This document shows, piece after piece, positions 76 through 12,659 of a DNA stretch of 12,659 bases; positions within the stretch are counted from its first letter, which is position 1; every line of letters starts with the position of its first letter. The stretch is from contig JBAWVS010000059.1 of assembly GCA_037147175.1 (NCBI GenBank), forward strand, positions 1 through 12,659, written 5' to 3'. Below the pieces are notes generated by a model, which did no database searches, was not told the DNA's origin, and worked only from the letters and a program-made list of their open reading frames with translations. Source of the DNA: a bacterium (lineage in GTDB: Bacteria > Cyanobacteriota > Vampirovibrionia > Gastranaerophilales > UBA9971). Made by a program: the position numbers and the translations under genes.

Positions 76-1014
76 ATGGGTCATAATTTTGTCAGCACTG
101 AACAAATTTTATTAGGACTCCTTAACATAAAAGATAATATTGTTTCAAAATCATTAAATAACTATGGTTTAACAATCCTCTCTACAAGAGAAGCTGTTGA
201 AAAAATTATAGGTAGGGGAAATGACCTTATTGGAATAGAGATACCATTTACGCCTTTAGCTAAAAAATTACTTGAATTGTCTTTTAATAAATCTAAATCA
301 TTAGGCATAAAGTATATCGCACCCGAACATCTCTTATTAGCGTTATTGGAATTAGATGAGGGTGTGGCAATTGATACTTTGAGAAATTCAAATATTAATA
401 TTAAATCATTAAAAAATTCAGTAACTACACTAATGAATCGACAAATTTTAGTTAAAACTGTCGAAGCTACTAAACCATCAATTGTTTTTAATAATTCAAA
501 TAGAGAAAATAAAGAAATTAAAGAAATTAAAGAAAAGTTGGAAAAATTAGAAAAACAATTTCAAAAAACCGCTACTGATGAAAAAATTATTAAGTGTAAC
601 TGTATTTTTATAGGACATGGGAGAAGCCCTCTTTGGAACAGGATAAATACTTGGTTAAAAGATAGTTTGAAGTTAAATGATGTAATTTATTTTGAATCAG
701 AGTGCCGAGCAGGGCATCATGTAGGCAATATCCTTAATGAATTTTTAGATAAAGCTACTTTTGCTATTATTATTATGACGGCAGAAGATGAAACGGCTGG
801 AGATGAAGTAAGGGCAAGACAAAATGTGATACATGAAATAGGTCTGTTTCAAGGGAAACTAGGCTTTAATAAAGTAGCAATCCTTAAGCAAGATACGGTT
901 CAACCCTTTTCTAATATTGATGGTCTTCAATATATCCCTTTTACAGGTGATAATATTCCACAAACTTTTTGGGAACTCCAAGAAATGCTAAAAAGAGAAG
1001 GCTTCTTGAATTAA
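76..1014 (+). CDS. Clp N-domain / TIR-like effector fusion protein (probable defence protein), 5' end probably frameshifted
   Basis: Seen: 312 residues from ATG 76. Residues 1-45 are the rest of a first ClpC-type N-domain repeat (GHNFVSTEQILLGLL). Residues 55-120 are the second repeat (IPFTPLAKKLLEL, then PEHLLLALLELDEGVA). Residues 143-165 are a charged coiled coil rich in K, E and I. Residues 174-310 match the TIR-like nucleotide-binding domain of CAP12/Pycsar-type effectors (Pfam PF10137): FIGHGRS at 178-184, ATFAIIIMTAED at 227-238, ARQNVIHEIGLFQGKLG at 247-263, with E254 the candidate catalytic glutamate. Known: TIR effectors of this kind hydrolyse NAD+ or bind nucleotides; Clp N-domains bind substrates or adaptors. 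There is no AAA+ module, so this is not a ClpC chaperone. Inference: a sensor-effector abortive-infection protein. In-frame similarity (AQEEAR) continues upstream of ATG 76 from position 55, so the true start is probably further left. Its stop overlaps the hsdS stop on the other strand. Confidence 0.85.
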   Translation: MGHNFVSTEQILLGLLNIKDNIVSKSLNNYGLTILSTREAVEKIIGRGNDLIGIEIPFTPLAKKLLELSFNKSKSLGIKYIAPEHLLLALLELDEGVAIDTLRNSNINIKSLKNSVTTLMNRQILVKTVEATKPSIVFNNSNRENKEIKEIKEKLEKLEKQFQKTATDEKIIKCNCIFIGHGRSPLWNRINTWLKDSLKLNDVIYFESECRAGHHVGNILNEFLDKATFAIIIMTAEDETAGDEVRARQNVIHEIGLFQGKLGFNKVAILKQDTVQPFSNIDGLQYIPFTGDNIPQTFWELQEMLKREGFLN

Positions 1015-2225
1015 ACTTTCGCCAAAGCCTCTTCCCTAAACTCCAACTCGCCTTTAAAAGCCCGCTGAAGCAGGGAATTGAATAAATCATCAAGCTTTAC
1101 GGCGGATGCTTCATTTTTCTTTTTCAGATCTTCAACTTTTTCGACTATCTGAGCAAATTCGTTTTGAAGTCCGATAGGGGGAAGATATATTTCAAAGTTT
1201 TTAACCATTGAAAGGTTTAAATTTGGTTGATTGCCACCCCTACCTAATTCTCTTAAAGTATTATATTGAGCTTTTAACAAATTAAATAAAAATTCGTGAT
1301 TTATTTTTTCAGAAGGCAAAATTGCACTGCAAGCTTGATTAGTAGTCGCTTTCTTTTTCAAAATAGCCGCTCTTCCTCTGGTATAGCCCTGTCCATACAT
1401 TGCAACCAGAATAGTATTCTGTGGAAATAATTTGCAATTACTTTTATTAATAGCTTCTTGAGTTATATGCTCCTCCGTATCATAGATATAAGAGTTTATA
1501 ACTTCTCCCGTTTTAACCCAAGGAATATCACCATTATAATATTCAGGTTTTTCTCTACTAGGAGTACTTCCTGTCTGAACTGCACAAATATCAACTATTT
1601 TGCATTCTTTCCATCCCTTCGAATTCTTAGTAGGGTCGCCGAACATATCAAGAAAAACCGACTGCAAAAACTCATCAAGCTTGGCATTTGCCTGTTTGCG
1701 TTTTTGGCGGAGTTCGTCAGCTTTGTCCAGCACCGCAGCGATTTGTTTCTGGGTTTCGAGAGGAGGAAGGGGAATTTTAAACTCTCTAACCGCATTTACA
1801 TTTAAATTTTGAACACCAATCCCTGTTGTACTACTTATTGCTAATTGTTTAAAACGCTCAGAATTAAGTAAATACATAAGATAATAACTGTAAACTAATT
1901 CCTTAATTGGTTTAATTAGGGTTAAGCTTACAAAAATACTGAATTCCTCATCAAAATCTATAACCGCAGCATCCCCAAAGCTACCAACTCTTGTATAGAG
2001 TATATCCCCTTTTTCAGGTTTATTCTTTTTGGTTAATTGATTGTGCGTTTCCTCGGAAATACAGTTAAAATTCTGAAAAAATATTTTATTTGCTTTTACA
2101 TTCTTAGACGATAAAAAAGGCACACCTTCCTCGATATACTCTGGTCTGGCTGCAACTCCACATGTGATAAGGCTTGTTACTTCCGTTAATTTAACTTCTT
2201 TCCAACCTTCAGGTAATTTTTTCAT
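1011..2225 (-). CDS. hsdS: Type I restriction-modification specificity subunit HsdS
   Basis: Selects the bipartite DNA recognition sequence for the type I methyltransferase/restriction complex. Seen: 404 residues with the canonical two-repeat plan. The first target-recognition domain (about 5-150) starts LPEGWKEVKL and ends IPLPPLETQKQIAAVLDKAD; a helical conserved spacer (155-198, ending FLDMFGDP) follows. The second target-recognition domain (about 203-347) starts GWKECKIVDI and ends YLPPIGLQNEF, followed by a terminal coiled coil (355-392, QRAFKGEL). Full length for the family, with no internal break. The start codon overlaps the hsdM stop in an ATGA arrangement, so the pair is translationally coupled. 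The 3' end overlaps the convergent Clp_N-TIR gene by 4 nt. The two TRDs differ from each other, so the target should be an asymmetric bipartite site, which cannot be predicted here. Confidence 0.96.
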   Translation of the reverse strand: MKKLPEGWKEVKLTEVTSLITCGVAARPEYIEEGVPFLSSKNVKANKIFFQNFNCISEETHNQLTKKNKPEKGDILYTRVGSFGDAAVIDFDEEFSIFVSLTLIKPIKELVYSYYLMYLLNSERFKQLAISSTTGIGVQNLNVNAVREFKIPLPPLETQKQIAAVLDKADELRQKRKQANAKLDEFLQSVFLDMFGDPTKNSKGWKECKIVDICAVQTGSTPSREKPEYYNGDIPWVKTGEVINSYIYDTEEHITQEAINKSNCKLFPQNTILVAMYGQGYTRGRAAILKKKATTNQACSAILPSEKINHEFLFNLLKAQYNTLRELGRGGNQPNLNLSMVKNFEIYLPPIGLQNEFAQIVEKVEDLKKKNEASAVKLDDLFNSLLQRAFKGELEFREEALAKV

Positions 2226-3694
2226 GCAAGTAAAGCCTCTAGCTCTTTTATACCTTGCTGAATTTTAGATTCAAGAGTGCTGACTTCTTCAAGAATTTTC
2301 TTAGGCGAATTATACTGCACTTCTTCATAAACAACTTCTTTATACCTGTTTATGCTTAAATCATAACCATTTGAGATAATTTCATCTTTCGGAACAAAGA
2401 AAGACTGATCCGTTCTTGTTCGGGATTCCTCTGCTTGCAAATTCTTATAACGATTAATAATATCGGGAAGATTATTGCATTCGTGTTTTGTCGAATCCAA
2501 CTCTGTTCTTTTCTCATCAAGGCTGAGTCCGTCTGCCTGCATATCATAGTACCAGACTTTATCAGTACCGCCTGAATTAGTTTTTGTAAAAATTAATATC
2601 CCCGTTGAAACTCCTGCATAAGGTTTAAACACTCCTGAAGGCATAGAAATAACTGCCTCAAGTTTATGCTGGTCGACAAGAATCTTTCTTAAATCTTTAT
2701 GAGCGTTAGAAGCCCCGAACAATACACCGTCAGGAACAATTACCGCACATCTTCCGCCTGTTTTAAGCAATCTGAGCATTAAAGGCAAAAACAAAAGTTC
2801 TGTCTTGGAAGTGCTGACTTCCGAAAGAAGGTTCTTCGCAATGGCTTTCTTGTCAATAGACCCTTTAAACGGGGGGTTTGCCAATACGCAAGTGCATATA
2901 TCAGCTTCGTGAGAACTGTCTTCAGATAAAGAATCTTTGTACTGAATATTCGGATTTTCTATGCCGTGCAAAATCATATTCATACAGCCGATTCGGAGCA
3001 TTGTCACATCAAAATCAAACCCGTGAAACATTTTTTCGTTAAAATGGTGCATTAATTCTTGATTGGAAAAGATTTCAGGGTGTTCTTTTCTTAAGTATTC
3101 TCCCGCTGCTACAAGAAAACCGCCCGTACCGCAAGCAGGGTCACAAATAACATCATCGGGCTTAATCTGCATCAGTTCAACCATCATATTTATAATATGC
3201 CTCGGAGTTCTGAACTGCCCGTTTACCCCTGCCGAGGCTATTTTGGAAAGCAAATATTCATAGAGATCGCCTTTGGTATCTCTGTCTTCCATAGGGATAT
3301 CATTAATCATATCAACAGCTTCAACCAACAAAACAGGCTTTTGTATCATAAAGATTGCATCTTTCATATACTTTGCATATGAAGAGCCGTCATTGCCTAT
3401 CTTTTTTATAAAAGGGAAAACTTCATTCATTACAACAAAGTGCATTTTTTCAGGGTCGAAATCTTTAAATTGTGACCAGCGAAGGTGATTTTGTTCAGGT
3501 GAAAAGATAGGATTTTCAATATCACGCTTAAGTCTGTGAGCCTTCTTTTCTCTCGCCGTATGAATATCATCAAGTCTTTTTATGAATAATAAATATGAAA
3601 TCTGTTCCATAACCGTTAAAGGGTTTGAAATCCCGCCACTCCAAAAGGTATCCCAAAGTCTGTCAACTTTTGATTTTATTTCACCCACAATCAT
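2222..3694 (-). CDS. hsdM: Type I restriction-modification DNA methyltransferase subunit HsdM
   Basis: N6-adenine methyltransferase of a type I system; with HsdS it forms the M2S1 methylase and, with HsdR, the restriction complex. Seen: 490 residues. The N-terminal helical domain (5-130) begins EIKSKVDRLWDTFWSGG; the catalytic N6_Mtase domain follows, with SAM-binding motif I DPACGTGGF at 185-193 and catalytic motif IV NPPF at 273-276; the FRTPRHI motif at 161-167 and PSGVFKPYAGVSTGILIF near 352-369 are typical. Length is normal. The ATG at 3694 has a purine-rich GGGA directly against it; an in-frame GTG two codons later has that GGGA at better spacing, so the exact start is uncertain by two residues. 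Forms an operon with hsdS. No hsdR is visible on either side within the window. Confidence 0.96.
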   Translation of the reverse strand: MIVGEIKSKVDRLWDTFWSGGISNPLTVMEQISYLLFIKRLDDIHTAREKKAHRLKRDIENPIFSPEQNHLRWSQFKDFDPEKMHFVVMNEVFPFIKKIGNDGSSYAKYMKDAIFMIQKPVLLVEAVDMINDIPMEDRDTKGDLYEYLLSKIASAGVNGQFRTPRHIINMMVELMQIKPDDVICDPACGTGGFLVAAGEYLRKEHPEIFSNQELMHHFNEKMFHGFDFDVTMLRIGCMNMILHGIENPNIQYKDSLSEDSSHEADICTCVLANPPFKGSIDKKAIAKNLLSEVSTSKTELLFLPLMLRLLKTGGRCAVIVPDGVLFGASNAHKDLRKILVDQHKLEAVISMPSGVFKPYAGVSTGILIFTKTNSGGTDKVWYYDMQADGLSLDEKRTELDSTKHECNNLPDIINRYKNLQAEESRTRTDQSFFVPKDEIISNGYDLSINRYKEVVYEEVQYNSPKKILEEVSTLESKIQQGIKELEALLA

Positions 3695-3743: not shown

Positions 3744-3928
3744 TTACAAATACATCAGGGAAAAACTTGTTAAGAGTTTAAATTTAATTGATTTTCTTTT
3801 ACGCAAAACTTTTAAAACCTGCCAAATTTGTATTTACTTGATACGAGGCTATTTACAGCCAAGAGGTAAAGAGTTTAATACCTCCTATAGGTTTTGGTTT
3901 TTGAAAAATACTAATATGGCTTTAAACG

Positions 3929-3944
3929 TGTACAGGTTAGATAA
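3929..3944. repeat. Candidate attachment site, left copy
   Basis: TGTACAGGTTAGATAA here and TGTACAGATTAGATAA at 12590-12605 match at 15 of 16 positions in direct orientation. This copy lies just beyond the integrase gene and its terminator, where an att site is expected. On the minus strand it reads as codons L-S-N-L-Y, and the mismatch changes AAC to AAT, both Asn. Short direct repeats occur by chance in AT-rich DNA, so the call depends on position and on the synonymous mismatch. Confidence 0.5.
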
Positions 3945-4001: not shown

Positions 4002-5033
4002 TTATCTGAAATTTGCCAACGCCTCAATAGCCATCCTTTTACGCTCTGGAACAGGGTGAGCATACCGCATAGTGGTAGTAATTTGCGAATGCCCGAGAAT
4101 ATCCTGAACAATAACCAATTCTACGCCCATAGCGACCATTCTTGTAGCTGCTGTGTGCCTTAAATCATGAAATCTTAATTTCTCAATACCTGACTTACTG
4201 CAAAGAGTTAAAAAGCTCTTTTTTATGTCTTTATAAGGCTGTTGAGTAATCGGGTTTGTAAAAACATATTCTGATTGCCTGTTATTATAAAGTTCTTTTA
4301 AATGTTCCGTTAATGCAGGACTTATAGGAATATTTCTGTTCTTTCCGCTTTTGGTCATGGTTACAGTAATAAACCCCTCTTGTAAGTTCACATGAACCCA
4401 TTTCAAGTTTAATATCTCCCCTCTTCTCATCCCTGTGTGCAGAGCGCATATAAGCAGAGGCTTCATGTACATTTGTGCTCCGACACAGTTATTTAACAAC
4501 CTTTCTTCTTCATCTGACTGCAAATAACGCTCCAATTTGGTTTCTTCTTTAAGTTTTTTTACAGCACGACAGGGATTTGAAAGAATCCAGCCGTTTTCAA
4601 GAGCAATAGAGAGCATCTTACTTAAAATTGACACTTCACGATTAATTGTTGCACCTGATAGAGGCTTACCGTTCTTTTTAGGCATCCTTTGCCGTTCAGA
4701 TCGATATCTTGAAATCAAATCGGGAGTTATTTCTTTCAGCTTACACTTTCCGAAGAAAGCACTTAACTTCCTGATTTTACTTTGTTCTTCCTTCCAGCCT
4801 TTCTTGGCTGACATTATATATTCTTTATAAGTTTCATTTAGCTTAGGGAAAGGCATTTCGCCTATTCCCTCTACTAAACTGTACTTACCTTGAAGAAGTT
4901 GGGCTTTAATTATTATTTCAGCTTTTTCCGCATCTTTTTTACTTGTTGCTTCAGGAACCGCCCTATGATACCTTTGACCTCGTATCATAAGGTTTATATA
5001 CCATTTATTACTATCAGTTTGATATACAGGCAT
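4002..5033 (-). CDS. int: Tyrosine recombinase / phage-type integrase
   Basis: Catalyses site-specific integration and excision of the element. Seen (numbering from ATG 5033, 343 aa): an N-terminal arm-binding-like region (1-60), a SAM-like core-binding domain (about 65-160, NETYKEYIMSAKKGW then SGATINREVSILSKML), and a catalytic domain with all expected residues: R203 in TGMRRGEIL, K228 in TKSGKNR, H289 and R292 in HDLRHTAATR, H315 in LGHS, nucleophile Y324 in MRYAHP. Full length and intact. A TTG at 5048 would add five residues (LWVTK) but overlaps the xis gene and has its AGGA too close; the ATG at 5033 starts one base after the xis stop with GTGGG about 8 nt upstream, so I prefer it. Probably translated from the same message as xis; a terminator follows. 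Confidence 0.95.
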   Translation of the reverse strand: MPVYQTDSNKWYINLMIRGQRYHRAVPEATSKKDAEKAEIIIKAQLLQGKYSLVEGIGEMPFPKLNETYKEYIMSAKKGWKEEQSKIRKLSAFFGKCKLKEITPDLISRYRSERQRMPKKNGKPLSGATINREVSILSKMLSIALENGWILSNPCRAVKKLKEETKLERYLQSDEEERLLNNCVGAQMYMKPLLICALHTGMRRGEILNLKWVHVNLQEGFITVTMTKSGKNRNIPISPALTEHLKELYNNRQSEYVFTNPITQQPYKDIKKSFLTLCSKSGIEKLRFHDLRHTAATRMVAMGVELVIVQDILGHSQITTTMRYAHPVPERKRMAIEALANFR

Positions 5034-5034
5034 T

Positions 5035-5274
5035 TTAGTTACCCACAATTCCTAAAGTTTTTTCCATTTTTGCCCCTGACAAGAGCCATTCCATTAACTT
5101 CGGCTTAATAAACAATACTTTTCTTCCGATTTTTAAATAAATTTCTGAAGGAAACTTGTTTCTTGGCTTGCTTCCTTTAGCACTTATGTAGGTGTAAATG
5201 CTCTTGGTTGTGCTTTTTAGGATGTCGGCTACTTCTTCAACGGTCAATAAATCTGTGGTTTCTAGGTTTTGCAT
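5035..5274 (-). CDS. Excisionase-like HTH (MerR/HTH_17 type) DNA-binding protein
   Basis: Seen: 79 residues. TVEEVADILKSTTKSIYTYI (11-30) is a helix-turn-helix of the excisionase/HTH_17 class, followed by the typical wing FPSEIYLKIGRKVLFIKPKLMEWL (41-64), where the residues after the helix contact DNA and L-x-x-WL closes the fold. Known: such proteins, encoded directly upstream of a tyrosine integrase, act as directionality factors that bend DNA at att sites, or as regulators of int. The stop codon is one base from the preferred integrase start, which supports joint expression. Ribosome binding site AAGGA about 8 nt before the ATG. An inverted repeat lies in the short gap upstream. Role as Xis is inferred from fold and position. 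Confidence 0.85.
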   Translation of the reverse strand: MQNLETTDLLTVEEVADILKSTTKSIYTYISAKGSKPRNKFPSEIYLKIGRKVLFIKPKLMEWLLSGAKMEKTLGIVGN

Positions 5275-5365: not shown

Positions 5366-6178
5366 TCAAAACTTTTGGATATAACTTACGGCTTCGCTTG
5401 CCTTCCCCGAAGCCTTGAAGATGTAGTTTTTATCTTTCTTTAAATTTTCAAGCCAACTTTCTATATAGCTGGCTGTATTTTCAATATCAACAGAAATTCC
5501 GTACTCTGCACTTAGGAAGCTAGAACCTATTTCAGCAACAAGCTCTTCAAAGGCTCTGTCTTTCTTGTCCTTCAATTCAAGTCTGTTCAGCCTGCTTTCA
5601 TGACCTGTCCAGTGAGTAAGTTCGTGAAACAGAGTTGAGTAATACCCTCGTTCATCTTTGAACTTAGACTTATACGGCATATTTATAAAGTCTTCTTTTA
5701 TGTCAAAGTAGGCTCTTTCTCCCTGATGTCTTAAAGAAGCCCCTGTTGATGAAATAAAAGTTTCTATTTCTGCTACTGATTTTATTTCGGGATTTTCTGT
5801 TTCTGCTTCCAAGTTTTCTATCTGGTCAATATTGAAAACATAATCCGTTTTAAAAAAGCGGGTGATGAGTTCTTCATCATTCCCGCTTGCATCACCTTTT
5901 TTCTTTGCCGTCTGGCATACTATTATCGGAGTTCCTTTTTCTCCTTTCCTGACTTTGCCCCCGAGTGTCCTTGCTTGTGCAAACCCTAACCAGTAATTGC
6001 TTGTATATCCGCTTAACTTTGAAGTAAGCCATAGGCACAAAGTGTTTATACCGTTATAATTATTTTTTGTTTTTAAATTTGTCGGCAAAGCTGTTCTTTC
6101 AAAAGGGCATCTCCAAGGAGTAACACCACTTTCAAGGGCTAATATTATTTTATCTGTCATATTTTGTCTTATGTCCAT
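5366..6178 (-). CDS. ardC: ArdC-type antirestriction protein (ssDNA-binding domain plus zincin metallopeptidase)
   Basis: Known: ArdC proteins of plasmids and integrative elements bind single-stranded DNA and protect incoming DNA from type I (and some other) restriction. Seen: 270 residues. The ArdC N-terminal domain (1-120) has the hallmark GVTPWRCPF (18-26), YNGINTLCLW (41-50), YWLGFAQARTLGG (62-74) and VRKGEKGTPIIV (76-87). The C-terminal peptidase domain (140-270) has HELTHWTGH (185-193), whose H185, E186 and H189 form the HExxH zinc site, and EELVAEIGSSFL (211-222), supplying the distal glutamate E216. Length is near the family norm and all motifs are intact. Ribosome binding site AAGGA about 9 nt upstream. 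It is 27 nt downstream of the OB-like gene and in its operon. Its proximity to the hsdMS block is notable, but whether it targets that system is inference. Confidence 0.93.
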   Translation of the reverse strand: MDIRQNMTDKIILALESGVTPWRCPFERTALPTNLKTKNNYNGINTLCLWLTSKLSGYTSNYWLGFAQARTLGGKVRKGEKGTPIIVCQTAKKKGDASGNDEELITRFFKTDYVFNIDQIENLEAETENPEIKSVAEIETFISSTGASLRHQGERAYFDIKEDFINMPYKSKFKDERGYYSTLFHELTHWTGHESRLNRLELKDKKDRAFEELVAEIGSSFLSAEYGISVDIENTASYIESWLENLKKDKNYIFKASGKASEAVSYIQKF

Positions 6179-6205: not shown

Positions 6206-6643
6206 TTAAACATTTCTTACAGACTGCAAGAAGATAGTTGTTGTTATCGACCTTAAACTTTCTTCCGTTTTATACTCTTTTATCGTCTGCCGTACCAAAG
6301 CATCACAGGATTCATAAAAAGCTATGAGGTTGGAAGCCTTTAGATTCAGCTTATTCTTTTCTTCTTCGCCCCAAATTTCAGGTTTTAAATTATTATTAGA
6401 AACTTCCGTATTAACTGATTGTTCTTCTTTGTTGAATACTATTTTTACTTTGTTGTCCTGCTCTTTTACAAGCGTTACTTTTTGATTTCTCCTTAAACTG
6501 CACAGGGTTGTATCCTCAGGCTTTCCCCATTGAGTTATCTGCTCACCCTCGTTAGTAACAAGTACGACATTTACTCTTTTACCGTAACGGGTTTCGACTT
6601 CTCTCATAGGGTATTTAACTGTCGCCTGTATCAATGCGCTCAT
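6206..6643 (-). CDS. Small OB-fold-like protein of unknown function, possible ssDNA-binding accessory
   Basis: Not confidently recognised. Seen: 145 residues in two parts. Residues 4-70 are strand-rich with a pattern suggesting an OB barrel: IQATVKYPMREVETRYGKR, NVVLVTNEGE, ITQWGKPED, QKVTLVKEQDNKVKIVF. An acidic and Asn-rich linker (71-96) follows, then a helical tail (97-145, NLIAFYESCDALVRQTIKEY). The RYGKRVNVVL-plus-W pattern recalls short OB proteins encoded beside ardC or replication genes on plasmids. It has a very strong ribosome binding site (AAAGGAGG, 6-nt spacing) located inside the end of the preceding 48-aa gene, and shares one base with that gene's stop (TAATG), so it is probably highly and coupledly translated. 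A role in ssDNA handling is inference from fold impression and neighbours. Confidence 0.8.
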   Translation of the reverse strand: MSALIQATVKYPMREVETRYGKRVNVVLVTNEGEQITQWGKPEDTTLCSLRRNQKVTLVKEQDNKVKIVFNKEEQSVNTEVSNNNLKPEIWGEEEKNKLNLKASNLIAFYESCDALVRQTIKEYKTEESLRSITTTIFLQSVRNV

Positions 6644-6789
6644 TATCTGCCTCCTTTAACATAGTTTGTCTGATAAAAATAGATGTCTGCTTCAAGTTGT
6701 TCTAACCTGTTTTCCTCATACTCGGTCAGGTCAGTTCGACAGCTCAATTCCTCCAGTTCGTTATAATCCGACTGAATAATCCAATTCAT
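6643..6789 (-). CDS. Small 48-aa acidic protein, unknown function
   Basis: Seen: ATG at 6789, 48 codons, stop TAA at 6643-6645 sharing one base with the ATG of the next gene. AAGGAG lies at 6799-6804 with 9-nt spacing, a good ribosome binding site. Sequence is acidic with tyrosines (begins MNWIIQSDYNELEELSC; the middle LTEYEENRLEQLEADIYFY predicts a helix). It is the first gene of the ardC operon, after a promoter with an overlapping palindrome. I do not recognise a family. It may be a leader protein whose translation opens the strong site of the OB-like gene, or a small anti-defence or regulatory protein; the acidity would fit a DNA mimic or an inhibitor but this is only a guess. Confidence 0.65.
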   Translation of the reverse strand: MNWIIQSDYNELEELSCRTDLTEYEENRLEQLEADIYFYQTNYVKGGR

Positions 6790-6820
6790 ACACACTTTCT
6801 CCTTGTGTTTTCTACCAACC

Positions 6821-6863
6821 ATAAGGTGTAAATACCTTATATATCTAATAGAACACCTGTAAA
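6821..6863 (-). promoter_or_regulatory. Promoter with overlapping palindromic operator for the 48-aa/OB/ardC operon
   Basis: On the minus strand: -35 TTTACA (6858-6863), 16-nt spacer, -10 TATAAG (6836-6841), each matching consensus at 5 of 6. The -10 is embedded in a perfect inverted repeat ATAAGGT (6821-6827) / ACCTTAT (6834-6840) with 6-nt spacer. A repressor bound there would cover the -10 and start site. The 14-nt stretch 6829-6842 recurs exactly at 10096-10109, at the -10 of the candidate helicase promoter. Confidence 0.65.
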
Positions 6864-6952
6864 TCTGTGGTGTATATATAAATTCTGCGTATATTGCACA
6901 TTTGTAACTATATGTTAAGGACTAAATCCATTAAACAAGTTTTATACAGTAC

Positions 6953-6996
6953 AAAAAAGCACTCTAAAGGAGATAAGTCCTGCTAGAATGCTTTTT
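6953..6996 (-). terminator. Rho-independent terminator after the clamp-like gene
   Basis: Long interrupted hairpin: AAAAAGCA (6954-6961) pairs TGCTTTTT (6989-6996), TCTA (6963-6966) pairs TAGA (6984-6987), AGGA (6968-6971) pairs TCCT (6978-6981), loop GATAAG. On the minus strand it ends in a run of Ts (complement of 6953-6958), about 20 nt after the stop at 7016. The stem also ends in T5 on the plus strand, so it may work both ways. It insulates the helicase-clamp unit from the ardC operon. Confidence 0.8.
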
Positions 6997-7015
6997 ATTA
7001 ACTATATTGTTATTA

Positions 7016-8371
7016 TTAACGATTTTTTAAAATAAATTTTAGTTTTTCATCTGAACAATTTATTAAAAGTTCATTTTTCTCATTAATTGATACAGCTCCA
7101 TTGTCTAATTTTTTAAAGACAGAGAATAATTTTATCAATGTATTTAACTCATATGAAATTGTAAAAGAACTTTCTTTATTAGTTTTACCAATTTTTTCTT
7201 TGAATTTTTTGCCTTGTTCTGTTAACGATTCGATATATAAAACTTTATCTTCAACAAATAATTTGACTATATTTAGATGAGTTGACTCTTTTACCATTTT
7301 TAAAATAATTTTTATTTTTTCAAGTTCTATATCATAAACCAAGGTCGTATCAGTGTTATTTTGATTAAATTTTGATTTGATTAAATTAAAATTTTCATTA
7401 TCTAAATATTCAAGTGGTAAAATCAAACTAAAATATTGTGAATCAATGAAAATCTTTTTTTTATCGATTTTACAGTATTTTAATGAAAAAATGCTCAAAT
7501 CAGAATTGTTTTTAATACCTTCTGTTTTCTTATAATGTTTTTTTATTTGATTTGTAGCTTGAATGAAATTTTTTATTAAGTCTACAGACCCCTTTGAAAG
7601 AACCATTTTCTCTTTAACATCAGTATCTTCCAGCTCAATAATCCCTAAAGCCGCTTCATAATAAGCTTTATTCTCTTCTAACATGATAAAAGCACTTTCA
7701 TTCACTGGCGGTTTAATTAAACCTGATAACTTAGAACTTTGTTTCAAAAATTTATTAAAATCTTCAATATTTAAATCTATTAAATTATTTTTGAATTTCT
7801 CTTTCGTATTAAAAAATTCTTCTTGTTTATCTATAAATGATAGATTATTCTTAAAAATATCATCCAAAGGGAAATTTTTAAAATACGGGATGTTTATAAA
7901 AATTTCGTTGCCGACTTTTTTAAAAGCAATTTTATCGTCATCCTTAATAGATTTTAAAATTGCCAAAAGATTTTTAAAATTTGTTAAAATAGCTTCTCTT
8001 AAAATTTTACTATTATCAGTTGTTATTGTAGGTATTCTTAATTCACATGAAAAATTTGAATTGTATAAATAAATATTAATAAGACCTTTTTGAGCTGTTA
8101 AGTAAATATTTTTAAAGGAATCTTGGGCTTTATCTACGAATTTATCTAAATACATTAGAAAAGTTTTTATTACAATTACATAGAAAACAAAATGTGGCTC
8201 TGAAGGGTTATACGGGTCTTCTTCTTTTGGGGAATTCATTAGCTCATAATCAATATCTTCTGCTGAAAAGATATCATCAAGGTAGTTCTTTGGCTGTTCA
8301 TTCATAATTTTTAATTCCTCTGATGCTGTATTTACGTTAATTATTGAGTTTAGAGTGTTTGTATTGTTCAT
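7016..8371 (-). CDS. Candidate divergent DNA sliding clamp (beta clamp / DnaN-like), element-encoded
   Basis: No confident family match; my reading is a three-domain sliding clamp. Seen: 451 residues, very AT-rich and Lys/Asn/Ile-rich. After a low-complexity N-terminus (1-58) come three segments of about 105 residues. Segment 62-170 reads like a clamp domain: a helix (VIKTFLMYLDKFVDKA), strands to FSCELRIPTI, a second helix (NFKNLLAILKSIKDDDKIAF), then NEIFINIPYFKNFPLDDI, resembling the clamp motif that ends in eeFP. Segment 222-322 is weaker. Segment 345-451 repeats the plan: KIKIILKMVKE, VLYIESLTEQGKKF, SFTISYELNTLIKLF, ending LKFILKNR, as beta clamps end in a strand with a basic residue. 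Ribosome binding site GAGGT 6 nt before the ATG. It lies 94 nt after the helicase with no terminator between, so probably the same operon. If correct, it holds a polymerase on element DNA. Function is inferred from pattern only. Confidence 0.6.
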   Translation of the reverse strand: MNNTNTLNSIINVNTASEELKIMNEQPKNYLDDIFSAEDIDYELMNSPKEEDPYNPSEPHFVFYVIVIKTFLMYLDKFVDKAQDSFKNIYLTAQKGLINIYLYNSNFSCELRIPTITTDNSKILREAILTNFKNLLAILKSIKDDDKIAFKKVGNEIFINIPYFKNFPLDDIFKNNLSFIDKQEEFFNTKEKFKNNLIDLNIEDFNKFLKQSSKLSGLIKPPVNESAFIMLEENKAYYEAALGIIELEDTDVKEKMVLSKGSVDLIKNFIQATNQIKKHYKKTEGIKNNSDLSIFSLKYCKIDKKKIFIDSQYFSLILPLEYLDNENFNLIKSKFNQNNTDTTLVYDIELEKIKIILKMVKESTHLNIVKLFVEDKVLYIESLTEQGKKFKEKIGKTNKESSFTISYELNTLIKLFSVFKKLDNGAVSINEKNELLINCSDEKLKFILKNR

Positions 8372-8465: not shown

Positions 8466-9815
8466 TTAATATGCTTCTCTTCTTGCTCCTTTGATAAAAA
8501 GTCCGCTAACGGCTCTTTTGTTACCTATCCGTATTTTTTCATAGCCTTTTGCCTTAAGTGATTCGACAAATCTTATTTGTGTCAAGGTTTTATAACCGTT
8601 TTCCCTGCAAAACTCTGTATAGCACTCATGCAGTTGTGTTGTTGATATACTTTCTTCTTGGTCTTTAATACATTTTTCTTCGATAAATTTGAAAACATTA
8701 TCCATTTGTTCTTTATAGGCAGTAGTTTCAGACCTTATTATCTCAGGGGGATTTAAGCTACCGTCATCCCTCCATTTTTGGTAACCCTCAAGAGCCCATT
8801 TAAGAATTCCTGCACCTTCATTCTTTAATTTTTCAAAAAGGAAAATGTCTCTATCGGCTTCTGAAATTTCAGCAACAAACGGTATAATCTGAACCCTGCG
8901 CCAAATTGCATCGGTTGATTCTTTTATTTCAGGCTTGGTATTTGTAATAATAAAAATTTTTGATTTATTTTTAAATTCCAGAGTTTCATTGCCGACATTG
9001 ACTGCAAAGGTATCATTTCCTGACATAATTTTTATGGTTTTTGCGTTTATACAGCTGTTTTCTTCTACTTCCGACAAGATAGCTAGGCGTGAAGTCAAAA
9101 AATTAAGAATATCGTTATTTAAATTGTGTTCCTTTTCATTTAAAATGAATGAGCGCGGTGCTGAACAAGCATAATCACCAAAAACGTATCTTAACGTTTC
9201 TACGAATACTGTTTTTCCGTTCATTCCGTTTCCGTACAAAATAAAAAAGCATTGCTCATTTGCATAACCTGAAAGACAATAGCCGATGACTCTTTGTAAA
9301 TAATCAATTAATTCTTGATTACTACTGGTAATAATGTTTAAGAACTTAAGCCACTCGTCACATGAACTTTTTTTAATTATTTCTGCGCACGTGCTGTTTT
9401 TGATTATTTCTACATTTGAAACTTTTGTTATTAAATAATCTCTGTTATGCTTGGTTGATTTTTTTGCATCAAGCTTTATAGTTCGATTCTTACAGTTGAA
9501 TAAATTATCATCTTTATTCAAATCGCAGAGGTTTACGGCTAAGAACGGTTTCATTAACTCAATAATTTTCAAAATTTTATTATAAGCTGTGAACTTTAAA
9601 TACGGGCTATTCTCTGAATTAGCTGTTTTTTCAGAAATAAATGAAATAATTTCTTTTAAAACTTTCCCGTCTTCATCAAAATCCCATTTTGTGCCGTTAT
9701 ACACAATCCATTTTCTCAAAGCGCAGACATATTTAATTTTTGTTTTAAACAGGTCAACAATTTCTGTCTTAATTTGCATTTCTGTGACTTTTGAACTTGT
9801 AAATTCTTTTGTCAT
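8466..9815 (-). CDS. Phage/plasmid-type SF3 helicase (D5/P4 family replication protein), lacking the primase domain
   Basis: ATP-driven hexameric helicase that would unwind the element's origin. Seen: 449 residues. The D5_N-like region (about 30-185) includes FLAVNLCDLNKDDNLFNCKNRTIKLD (91-116) and a helix before the core. SF3 core: Walker A YGNGMNGKT (194-202, K201), Walker B-like AILSEVEE (245-252), motif C with sensor asparagine IFIITNTKPE (287-296, N292), arginine finger in WRRVQIIPF (305-313). The C-terminus (360-449) is a winged-helix-like tail with QLHECYTEFCRENGY. Family members often carry an N-terminal primase-polymerase domain; it is absent here and no separate primase is seen, so priming may depend on the host. 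Ribosome binding site GGAG 7 nt before the ATG. Upstream is a 1-kb gene-free region; downstream the clamp-like gene is probably co-transcribed. Confidence 0.93.
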   Translation of the reverse strand: MTKEFTSSKVTEMQIKTEIVDLFKTKIKYVCALRKWIVYNGTKWDFDEDGKVLKEIISFISEKTANSENSPYLKFTAYNKILKIIELMKPFLAVNLCDLNKDDNLFNCKNRTIKLDAKKSTKHNRDYLITKVSNVEIIKNSTCAEIIKKSSCDEWLKFLNIITSSNQELIDYLQRVIGYCLSGYANEQCFFILYGNGMNGKTVFVETLRYVFGDYACSAPRSFILNEKEHNLNNDILNFLTSRLAILSEVEENSCINAKTIKIMSGNDTFAVNVGNETLEFKNKSKIFIITNTKPEIKESTDAIWRRVQIIPFVAEISEADRDIFLFEKLKNEGAGILKWALEGYQKWRDDGSLNPPEIIRSETTAYKEQMDNVFKFIEEKCIKDQEESISTTQLHECYTEFCRENGYKTLTQIRFVESLKAKGYEKIRIGNKRAVSGLFIKGARREAY

Positions 9816-9836
9816 ATTATTTCTCCGTTATCTACT

Positions 9837-9852
9837 TGGGCTAAATAGCCCA
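9837..9852. repeat. Hairpin just upstream of the helicase gene
   Basis: Perfect 6-bp stem TGGGCT (9837-9842) / AGCCCA (9847-9852), AAAT loop, 22 nt upstream of the helicase start codon and just before its ribosome binding site. It could influence translation or be a protein site; no T-tract follows, so it is not a terminator. Confidence 0.4.
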
Positions 9853-9955
9853 CATATATCTCTACGTATTTTTGTTAAAAACTTCGCTGAGTAAGGCACG
9901 TATATGGCACAAAATATCTTTATGTATTTCTACAAATCCTTGCTGTGCAAGGATT
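9851..9955. repeat. Imperfect tandem repeat of about 58 bp upstream of the helicase gene
   Basis: Two units start with CACA at 9851 and 9908. Their cores, 9856-9871 and 9914-9929, match at 14 of 16 (ATATCTyTAyGTATTT), and similarity decays through GCTG and AAGG further on. The second unit ends in a perfect hairpin: AATCCTTGC (9935-9943) / GCAAGGATT (9947-9955) with TGT loop. If the promoter at 10095-10131 is used, all of this lies in the leader of the helicase mRNA. Alternatives are origin iterons or an old duplication. Confidence 0.5.
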
Positions 9956-10094
9956 ATGCTTCTAAAAAATTCGTATTTACATTTCGTTACAATTAGGCGC
10001 AAAATCCACGAATATAGAAATATGATTTAGCTTATGATTACTAAAAACATTTATATTTTATCTGTTTTTTAATTAAATCAGACCTCAAACAAAA

Positions 10095-10131
10095 TTAAAT
10101 ACCTTATATGCAAGCACACAAGGTATTTAAA
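10095..10131 (-). promoter_or_regulatory. Candidate promoter with operator for the helicase-clamp operon
   Basis: On the minus strand: -35 TTTAAA (10126-10131), 17-nt spacer, -10 TATAAG (10103-10108). The whole site is bracketed by perfect 11-bp inverted arms TTAAATACCTT (10095-10105) and AAGGTATTTAA (10120-10130) with a 14-nt spacer. The 14 bases 10096-10109 are identical to those at the ardC-operon promoter (6829-6842). Use of this promoter gives a leader of about 280 nt before the helicase start. Confidence 0.5.
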
Positions 10132-10308
10132 GAATAGATATAGATTTTAAATCAACTATTTTCGAGTTTAAGTATAAAAAATTACTTGTTAGCTCAATTA
10201 TAGTTGGCAAGTTGACGGAAGCTGGCTTGTTTAATATTTAATCTGTCAGTTTATTGAAGCTTTGCTTGAAATCTTACAAGTCAGATTCTAACTTTGAAGA
10301 TATATTCG

Positions 10309-10479
10309 TTATAAAAACAAATTGTGTTTTATAAATTATCTCTTATCTTCATAAGTGGGATATTAAAATATCTAACACATTGTTCTTGAAGGTATTTAGG
10401 TACCTGTATATTGATGCAAATAGCATTATGCTTATGCATCAATAAAACAGGCAGTTCTTTTTATAGCTCAAATGAGCTA
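10309..10479. repeat. Cluster of four hairpin-forming inverted repeats
   Basis: Seen: 10309-10334, arms of 10 bp with one bulged A and loop AATTG (TTATAAAAACA/TGTTTTATAA); 10359-10372, GATATT/AATATC with 2-nt spacer; 10412-10441, outer arms TTGATGCA/TGCATCAA enclosing an inner palindrome AGCAT-T-ATGCT, a two-tier stem; 10464-10479, TAGCTCA/TGAGCTA with 2-nt spacer. None is followed by a T-tract. AGGTA/TACCT (10390-10394, 10401-10405) is interleaved. Such clustering suggests cruciforms or initiator sites, or a structured RNA. Confidence 0.55.
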
Positions 10480-10577
10480 CACTGTGGGCACTATGCAGGT
10501 GTACTTTCTACATAGTTGTAAGTTTCTGGTAACTTAAATAAGTAAACTTATAAATCTTATTTAATATGGTATAAAGG

Positions 10578-10706
10578 TCTTCACCTATCTAAAACATTCA
10601 ATCAATCAAAAATAAAAATAAATAAAAATAAATAAAATAAATAAAATAAACAAAATAAACAAACAAAAAAACAAAATAAAAATAAAAATTCTTTTCTTTA
10701 TTATTA
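10578..10706. repeat. G-free, A-rich tract with 9-10 bp phased A-tracts; candidate DNA unwinding element
   Basis: The plus strand has no G for 129 nt. Within it five near-identical units occur at 10610-10619, 10620-10629, 10630-10638, 10639-10647 and 10648-10656 (AAATAAAAAT, AAATAAAAT, last one AAACAAAAT), a 9-10 bp period close to one helical turn, so the DNA is likely bent and easily melted. It lies downstream of the HD gene and next to the hairpin cluster. Confidence 0.6.
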
Positions 10707-10818
10707 GTATTTATATAAAAATTGTCTAATCTCTTTCGAGCGACTTCAATAAATTATACGAAAATTATTTAAAAATACACACGGGCAATTTCAAAGATTT
10801 TACAAGTATCTTGAAGCT

Positions 10819-11436
10819 TTATATCTGCCTTAAATCTTTACTCAGAAGTTTATTGGCATAGAAATAACTGTTATCATCTTTTAATATTCTATTTTCCTCA
10901 TAAATATGTGCTGTCCAATAGTCCGCCCAATGAACTAGTAAAGTTAGCGGTTCTTCTTTATGAGCCACACATTTATTTTCAGCTATATACTGACCGTCAT
11001 GATATGTTATAGCTTGTGCTTCTGAATCAGAAAGAGGAATGTATTTTGAAATCAGGTACAGACTTCTTACGGCAAGCCCCATTTCTGTTACTTGAGGATT
11101 AATTACATAGTTGCTCTTACTTTCGGTGTTGCAATTCTTTAGATATCTGGGCTTTTGGGGCATACCGATTTTACCGACATCATGAAAAAGCCCGACAATT
11201 ACACAACTTTCTTCTGAAATTATAGGGGCAAAAGTTTTACGGAATTCAAGAAGAGTTAAAGCAACGCCGACGCTGTGTTTTAACAAACCTCCTTCTTCGC
11301 AAAGATGATATTTACAGCTTGCAGGACTTGTTAGCCAGCTTGTTTCATTTTCAAGAAAGGATATAAACCTGTTAAAATCCTCTTTCCTGCTTCTAACTTT
11401 ACCTTTTAGATTTTCATATTCTTTTTCAAAATTCAT
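10819..11436 (-). CDS. HD-domain phosphohydrolase
   Basis: Seen: 205 residues with a metal-binding HD fold: EEGGLLKHSVGVALTLLEF (47-65, H54), GLFHDVGKIG (82-91, H85 and D86), ITYHDGQYI (143-151, H146), LLVHWADYWTAH (166-177, D172). The H...HD...H...D order is complete, so it should be active. The region around 44-90 resembles the HD part of YhaM-type exoribonucleases and HD proteins common on plasmids, but there is no OB domain. Known: HD enzymes cleave phosphoester bonds in nucleotides or nucleic acids; the substrate here is unknown. Ribosome binding site AAGGAG 5 nt before the ATG. It starts 12 nt after the stop of the nuclease gene, so the two form an operon; a nucleotide- or nucleic-acid-degrading pair used in defence or in element replication is inference. 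Confidence 0.85.
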   Translation of the reverse strand: MNFEKEYENLKGKVRSRKEDFNRFISFLENETSWLTSPASCKYHLCEEGGLLKHSVGVALTLLEFRKTFAPIISEESCVIVGLFHDVGKIGMPQKPRYLKNCNTESKSNYVINPQVTEMGLAVRSLYLISKYIPLSDSEAQAITYHDGQYIAENKCVAHKEEPLTLLVHWADYWTAHIYEENRILKDDNSYFYANKLLSKDLRQI

Positions 11437-11448
11437 AAATTCTCCTTT

Positions 11449-12390
11449 TTATAAATATCTTTCACTTATGTAATTACTCCACGGCTTTAATTCAGGCGGT
11501 GCATCATACTTCTGGAAGCATAAATCCCAATATTCGCCTATAAACCTATGTTTATGACTTTCACTTAACAAGCTGTGCCATATCTCGTGTATTTCTTGTC
11601 CTATGTATTTTTCAAAACCCTTTGAATACTCCGCTTGGCTTGCTGTTAAGACATTAAGCTTCTTGTTTTGGCTGTGGCTTAGGTGCATTACAATGTAGTC
11701 TTCTACATAGTGATCTCCGAACTTAACACCTAGTGTCTGTTGAGCTAACAGATGTTGCCTTAACAGTTGATAAAACGGCTCATAGCAAATATCATATAAT
11801 CCCCAAGTATCCATTTCCTGCATGTTGAATAATATTTCGTTGCCGTATTCCCTTTCTTTCGCTATTATCGGGGCATATCTGGCAAGTCTTTCTATGCCTT
11901 TTGCACCCAAGAACTTCCCTGTATTGTGTCTTGATGCGTATGATTCTGTAAACTTCCACTCTATAAGTATTTGAGTGTTCTTGCCGTTTACTTTTGCTAA
12001 GATGTAGGCATCAATGCTTGTTCTGTGGCAACCTCTCATATAGCCGTCATTTTCCCCGATTGGCGAACGTATAGGACCTATCCATTCAAACAAAACGTTT
12101 CCGCTGTCAGGATAAACGCAATCGTAGAAGGTCGAATTAGGCTTAAATGATAAAATTTTCTCTGCTTTTATCCCGAAAACTTCAAGGAAATCTCTTAAAT
12201 TTTCTTTCTGCTCCTCTGCAATAAAGGGATACCAAAAGTTCATACAACAAGCCTGACTGCTTATAGGGCTGTTAATTCCTGTGTGTGCCGTAATTCTGTT
12301 CTTTTTCAGGATTCCCCACATTTTAGGTGAAATTAAATTGTTTCCCTGCCATTTTTCTTGATAATCTTTTGTTAATACGCCGGTACTCAT
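11449..12390 (-). CDS. PD-(D/E)XK-like nuclease, possibly of the PGN_0703 putative restriction endonuclease type
   Basis: Seen: 313 residues. The core at 118-150 (MRGCHRTSIDAYILAKV, then ILIEWKFTESY) gives D127 followed by E144-x-K146, the spacing and strand pattern of a PD-(D/E)XK active site; the IEWKFTE signature recalls the PGN_0703 group of putative restriction endonucleases. The N-terminus (20-110) has WGILKKNRITAHTG and FWYPFIAEEQ; the C-terminus (190-313) is helical with YEPFYQLLRQHLLA and no membrane segment. No methylase partner is adjacent. Ribosome binding site AAGGAG 7 nt before the ATG. It is the first gene of a two-gene operon with the HD protein, at the end of the element opposite the integrase, the usual place for cargo. 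Family assignment is from motif memory; nuclease fold is fairly sure, target and role are not known. Confidence 0.75.
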   Translation of the reverse strand: MSTGVLTKDYQEKWQGNNLISPKMWGILKKNRITAHTGINSPISSQACCMNFWYPFIAEEQKENLRDFLEVFGIKAEKILSFKPNSTFYDCVYPDSGNVLFEWIGPIRSPIGENDGYMRGCHRTSIDAYILAKVNGKNTQILIEWKFTESYASRHNTGKFLGAKGIERLARYAPIIAKEREYGNEILFNMQEMDTWGLYDICYEPFYQLLRQHLLAQQTLGVKFGDHYVEDYIVMHLSHSQNKKLNVLTASQAEYSKGFEKYIGQEIHEIWHSLLSESHKHRFIGEYWDLCFQKYDAPPELKPWSNYISERYL

Positions 12391-12566: not shown

Positions 12567-12659
12567 TTATATAATAGTAGCTAAATGACTGTACAGATTA
12601 GATAATATTTTGAGCTTTTCAGAATTTCCCTTTAAATTCAACAGATACACTTTATTTAT
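12567..12659 (-). CDS. Possible 3' end of a gene running off the window, candidate integration target
   Basis: On the minus strand a frame is open from the window edge for 30 codons and ends ...KILSNLYSHLATII at TAA 12567-12569. The other two frames are closed at once. The right attachment repeat lies within it, encoding L-S-N-L-Y, and the left copy encodes the same residues with a synonymous change. Tyrosine integrases often target the 3' end of a gene and restore it. Thirty open codons can occur by chance in a random frame, and I do not recognise the product. Confidence 0.35.
   Translation of the reverse strand: MNKVYLLNLKGNSEKLKILSNLYSHLATII
12590..12605. repeat. Candidate attachment site, right copy
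   Basis: TGTACAGATTAGATAA, 15 of 16 identical and in direct orientation to 3929-3944. It lies 200 nt beyond the start of the last element gene. Together the copies delimit about 8.7 kb in which all genes are on one strand and the integrase sits at one end. Confidence 0.5.

Follow-up and report, generated by a model that had tools for sequence, protein, structure and literature searches.

We propose, at a probability of roughly 0.6, that the 451-aa protein called X here is a sliding-clamp-like protein of the beta type, with three domains and a highly divergent sequence, that it belongs to the replication cassette of a small integrative element in a Gastranaerophilales-type host, and that its partner surface has been rewired. 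The window, meaning the whole stretch of DNA that was analysed, corresponds to one complete contig (C59; 12,659 bp) from a metagenome-assembled genome of 2.66 Mb. An original prediction, made from the letters of the sequence, had already taken X for a possible divergent clamp; the coordinates and length that it gave for the gene were correct, and the ORF list shows an intact reading frame on the minus strand. The features of the element, by position in the window, are:

3927–3942, minus: att-like repeat ATCTAACCTGTACACG, an imperfect repeat outside the integrase
4002–5048, minus: tyrosine integrase (PF00589)
5035–5274, minus: helix-turn-helix/excisionase-like protein (PF12728, phrog_66)
5366–6178, minus: ArdC-type antirestriction protein (PF08401, PF18818)
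6206–6643, minus: 145-aa conserved element protein, present in related elements of the order, with no convincing family match
6643–6822, minus: 59-aa ORF (ORF list), no assigned family
6948–7012, minus: terminator-like hairpin just 3' of X (fold z = -5.05; A and U runs flank the hairpin)
7016–8371, minus: X, 451-aa clamp-like protein (ORF, with a syntenic homologue in genome G006 and a distant homologue, P1)
8466–9815, minus: SF3/P4-type helicase, 449 aa (D5_N PF08706; Pox_D5 PF03288; TIGR01613, 3.3e-72)
9816–10818, minus: candidate origin, an AT-rich intergenic stretch of 1 kb upstream of the helicase, proposed by inference
10819–11436, minus: HD-domain protein (PF01966, phrog_28876)
11449–12390, minus: REase-ARP type PD-(D/E)XK protein, the conserved end gene of the element family (PF22558; alignment)
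12588–12603, minus: att-like repeat ATCTAATCTGTACAGT, an imperfect repeat outside the REase

The SF3 helicase that had been reported to adjoin X is there: its gene lies directly upstream on the same strand, with a gap of 94 bp, and carries the D5_N and TIGR01613 matches. No profile matched a primase domain in this 449-aa protein. On the other side of X, the hairpin folds 5 standard deviations better than its shuffled versions. We infer that X is co-expressed with the helicase, and the operon order of helicase, X and terminator was counted in favour of the replication-cassette reading.

The two imperfect repeats bracket the genes from the integrase to the REase and lie approximately 8.7 kb apart. 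Their positions set the size of the element at about 8.7 kb, in keeping with the sub-10-kb element of the original prediction, and leave hsdM/hsdS and a TIR gene outside. In the corresponding element of G006, imperfect repeats (84 nt, 71%) also lie outside the integrase and REase. Within the candidate origin there are A/T-rich repeats at 10600–10686 and a palindrome with 16-bp arms at 10095–10130. The element has no recognised gene for a polymerase, clamp loader or primase and would have to use those of the host; packaging genes were not seen either. The 145-aa protein was considered as an SSB/OB-fold protein, and this was rejected as searches gave no support. Outside the element the window holds type I hsdS and hsdM (1011–3694, minus), with no hsdR within the window, and adjoining them a fusion of Clp_N to a CAP12/Pycsar-type TIR domain (76–1014, plus; PF02861 and PF10137; PADLOC PDC-S35, PycTIR), which is a candidate defence effector. 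An hsdR-M-S set is found beside the integrase of the G006 element.

X is a real, conserved protein with two homologues in the same slot. G006, from the same family (L044/L015), encodes a 449-aa protein that is 29% identical to X over its full length, next to a helicase 47% identical to that of the window. In the G222 element the slot is filled by P1 (427 aa), whose reading frame and the end of the helicase gene overlap. BLAST did not detect a relation between X and P1; profile alignment gave a score of 35.7 over approximately 150 collinear residues, whereas none of 106 unrelated proteins scored above 25.1 and none of 60 shuffles of P1 above 24.5. An X-type gene adjoins the helicase in all three elements that carry one, and in all three it has the lowest G+C among the genes measured (23.6, 27.1 and 25.3%). 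In searches for further relatives, IMG/VR yielded none when scanned with X, the X alignment, the helicase, the REase, P1 or the 145-aa protein, tblastn found none for X in phages and plasmids or for the G006 homologue and P1 in phages, and genome searches across the class and order returned only X and the G006 homologue, plus weak chance matches.

Related elements in the order share a common plan of REase-helicase-145aa-ArdC-HTH-integrase. The REase-ARP nuclease is 54–81% identical to the window copy across these elements; it is the most conserved of the aligned genes of the element family and a good search marker. In most of the related elements no gene lies between the helicase and the 145-aa gene, and no remnants of X were found in these gaps in the elements that lack it. 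Within the genus of G222, the 145aa-ArdC-integrase backbone is nearly identical from element to element but the helicases differ greatly, those of the G222, G144 and G098 elements being 32–35% identical. It seems that the helicase part is a swappable cassette, the replication module being exchanged as a unit. The loci L018, L020 and L035 have near-identical 145aa-ArdC-HTH-178aa-Int backbones with unrelated helicase cassettes and different neighbour genes.

At the level of the whole protein, searches did not recognise X as a clamp. Pfam, PHROGs and NCBIfam did not recognise X at all, and none of the DnaN profile families (Pfam, TIGR00663, PHROGs) matched X, at E up to 1 or 10, so the sensitive DnaN/PCNA profile search that had been suggested as a check was negative. 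The DnaN profile that misses X does recover the chromosomal DnaN of the host. Among PDB sequences nothing was found with X, and against 30 DnaN sequences the whole-protein score was at noise. The parts of X, as presently read, are:

8207–8371, minus: acidic tail, residues 1–55, net -9 (composition; lowest model confidence)
7832–8206, minus: presumed clamp domain I, residues 56–180, with H58–78, EEE and H122–140 (order of helices and strands, low-confidence model)
7856–7876, minus: NFPLDDI, residues 166–172, an EFP-like motif where domain I is presumed to end (translation)
7358–7789, minus: presumed clamp domain II, residues 195–338 (order of helices and strands, conservation)
7019–7339, minus: clamp-type domain III, residues 345–451 (AF2, Foldseek, controlled profile alignment)

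The evidence for a clamp comes chiefly from the last of these. When residues 345–451 were modelled alone by AF2 from three alignment rows, the model had a pLDDT of 55.9 and the order H-EEE-H-EEE; because P1 often fell out of register in three-row alignments, its well-aligned tail was the only part of it added (A12). In a Foldseek search of this model against the whole PDB, the top match was DnaN (6man_B; probability 0.84, E 0.039), and DnaN chains from about 11 species made up 36 of the first 50 rows (hand count), against a share of DnaN in the PDB of roughly 0.03% (about 360 of 1.06 million chains). No match was individually significant, with no E below 0.001 and a TM of at most ~0.37. VIA-align placed T4 gp45 first (Z 4.8), with PCNA, 9-1-1 and KSHV PF-8 also present and DnaN rows mapping onto the residues of X domain III, all at Z below 5. 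A viral structure library gave no clear match, the iridovirus PCNAs ranking 3 and 15 among noise.

The full-length model, built by AlphaFold from two alignment rows, was unusable at pLDDT 33. Neither the matches that VIA gave for it (ribosome hibernation factors, PqiC) nor its Foldseek list (mostly glyoxalase-fold proteins) were trusted. As helices and strands follow one another in the modules of glyoxalase-type proteins just as they do in clamp domains, the comparison was made domain by domain, with profiles of the domains of X and P1 set against the DnaN domains and 29 glyoxalase-family proteins. X domain III scored 19.5 against DnaN domain III, aligned over 81 columns with an offset of 1; against DnaN domain I, in the equivalent second half, it scored 20.4 (offset 2). 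P1 domain III scored 23.6 against DnaN domain III over 57 columns (offset 0). Column shuffles against DnaN domain III reached at most 18.1 for X and 19.2 for P1 (n = 150 each), and segments of unrelated proteins at most 22.3 (n = 300), three of them scoring 19.5 or above. The P1 score thus exceeded all 450 controls (150 shuffles and 300 segments). An in-register alignment, of at least 50 columns and within 5 residues, was seen for both X and P1 and in 0 of 600 controls, although these tests were picked after the first alignments had been seen and, X and P1 being related, are not fully independent. The best-matching stretch reads IVKLFVEDKVLYI in X, IVKMKIKNNTMFL in P1 and IVKMNFNDNKLKL in the host DnaN.

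The last domain of X is similar to DnaN domain III, and it probably has the clamp fold. The same comparison bears on the proposal that X has some other fold with this alternation of helices and strands, for instance paired glyoxalase (VOC)-type modules, and acts as a DNA-binding accessory of the helicase. VOC and clamp domains share the order beta-alpha-beta-beta-beta, and VOC proteins make up most of the Foldseek list of the full-length model; that list comes from the pLDDT 33 model, whereas the better model of domain III gives DnaN. Against glyoxalase/VOC profiles (PF00903 family) the domain III scores of X and P1 were at noise (hhalign 9.4–10.0) while DnaN domain III stood out, and hmmscan against Pfam gave no VOC match for X. 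We therefore regard a VOC-type fold as unlikely.

For the remainder of the chain the clamp reading is drawn from the order of helices and strands, from spacing and from the EFP-like motif, on which domains I and II are presumed. NFPLDDI was confirmed at residues 166–172, as was the terminal strand LKFILKNR at 444–451. Pro168 and Asp170 are kept in the G006 homologue, and the proline is not kept in P1. The motif lies 108 residues from the first helix in X and approximately 110 in the host DnaN (hand count). The longest run conserved with the G006 homologue, ILPLEYLDN (317–325), falls in presumed domain II. The six longest helices of the full-length model (58–78, 122–140, 202–211, 260–283, 350–362 and 409–420) follow a clamp-like order, while profile comparison of domains I and II with DnaN domains gave no significant match. 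The presumed pore helices of X have a charge of +12, a figure left unused in view of the poor model and the acidic nature of the G006 homologue. Residues 1–55 are probably disordered, and this tail is mostly absent from P1. The three segments of ~105 residues originally described were only roughly right, since in the low-confidence model the first helices of the three presumed domains are 144 and 148 residues apart and follow the 55-residue tail, and it is the third segment (345–451) alone that has support beyond order and motif. Two lines of different method, the Foldseek enrichment for DnaN and the controlled profile alignment, support the proposed clamp architecture for the C-terminal domain, with which the whole chain is compatible. 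That X is a three-domain clamp is likely.

The partner surface of X probably differs from that of a cellular clamp. In DnaN two subunits of three domains each join head to tail, and all known partners bind one pocket to which Val360, Met362, Pro363, Met364 and Arg365, close to the C-terminus, contribute (PMC11139829). The pocket residues of the canonical C-terminus (Val-x-Met-Pro-Met-Arg) are absent from X, which ends LKFILKNR, from the G006 homologue (AKIVWCNNY) and from P1 (IKFIIYHSK); host and prophage DnaN retain the IMP core. The original prediction suggested that X could selectively recruit the host polymerase, compete with the host clamp or inhibit a helper phage; with the pocket residues lost, it is less likely that X simply recruits Pol III of the host. 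A clamp-binding motif, for which the neighbouring helicase had been singled out, was not found: strict scans for QL(S/D)LF-type, QxxLxF-type and PIP-type motifs gave no match in the element proteins of the window, helicase included, and loose scans gave isolated matches in homologous elements only. The altered C-termini, together with the lack of a binding motif in the element, point to a clamp-like protein whose partner surface has changed. As two defining features of DnaN (the profile match and the C-terminal pocket) are absent, X was not filed as a member of that family.

In the model that we favour, X would be made together with the SF3 helicase and would tether a partner on DNA at the replication fork of the element, acting either as an open clamp or as a homodimeric ring. 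Its binding surface would have diverged from the canonical DnaN pocket, and the partner could be the helicase, the host polymerase through other contacts, or the machinery of a rival. A role in replication of the element is somewhat favoured on this view of the cassette. A minimal replisome is a more tentative extension, in which the rewired clamp and the SF3 helicase would operate without polymerase, loader or primase, the clamp perhaps partnering the helicase and either loading itself or hijacking the host loader.

X could instead be a clamp-fold decoy or inhibitor that assembles into mixed or competing rings, or ties up the clamp loader, and so blocks replication of the host or of a competing phage. 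Phages of the clade carry their own DnaN, X lacks the canonical C-terminal pocket and related elements manage without X, all of which would suit a decoy; its coupling to the replication helicase in 3/3 elements, unlike a stand-alone cargo gene, makes this improbable. A loader-independent, monomeric or C-shaped processivity factor (UL42/UL44/PF-8-like), acting with the helicase or host polymerase, is very improbable, as the G006 homologue has a pI of 5.5 and the length of X corresponds to three domains and not to two, even though no loader is recognised in the element, the core pI is 8.9 in X and 9.1 in P1 against 4.8 in host DnaN, and positively charged, loader-free viral clamps have been described (PMC9690074).

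Virus-borne clamps are already known, since phages of this clade encode DnaN. A prophage in the same host order (L102 8016–9140, G028:C3) carries a second DnaN (366 aa, counted from its ATG) next to a short SSB-like ORF. Another locus (L103 7150–8208, G509) encodes a very divergent phage clamp of 352 aa beside phage-type genes, of which the DnaN profile finds part only. Compared with DnaN (TIGR00663, prophage-borne members included), X is alike in its three-domain length, predicted order of helices and strands and offset of the EFP-like motif, and its domain III aligns in register; it differs by the 55-residue acidic N-tail, by inserts, by the missing Val-x-Met-Pro-Met-Arg and profile recognition, and by its place on an 8.7-kb element without a recognised polymerase or loader. 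The probable clamp fold would be common to X and T4 gp45, which is the best VIA match of domain III, and to PCNA, PF-8 and UL42, though T4 gp45, PCNA and the herpesvirus factors have two domains per chain, against the three presumed in X. T4 and the herpesviruses are clamp-encoding viruses with their own polymerase.

P4-type satellites and SaPI-like islands combine their own helicase-type replication protein with the host polymerase. The window element shares with them an integrase, an excisionase-like gene, a P4/D5 helicase, small size and presumed use of the host polymerase, and differs by the clamp-like gene, by having no packaging genes seen and by a helicase in which no primase domain was recognised. 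Clamp genes normally belong to cells, or to viruses that have a replicase as well; satellites and plasmids presumably rely on the host clamp, and one of their own is not expected in elements so small. Searches of the open-access literature turned up no clamp carried by a satellite or plasmid together with an SF3 helicase. What is unusual here is a clamp-like gene beside an SF3 helicase, on an 8.7-kb element without a replicase and diverged past library recognition. If our reading is true, the element would exemplify a replication strategy by which a small parasite supplies its own tethering ring, tied to its helicase, and the changed binding surface would make it testable whether X recruits, redirects or sabotages polymerases.
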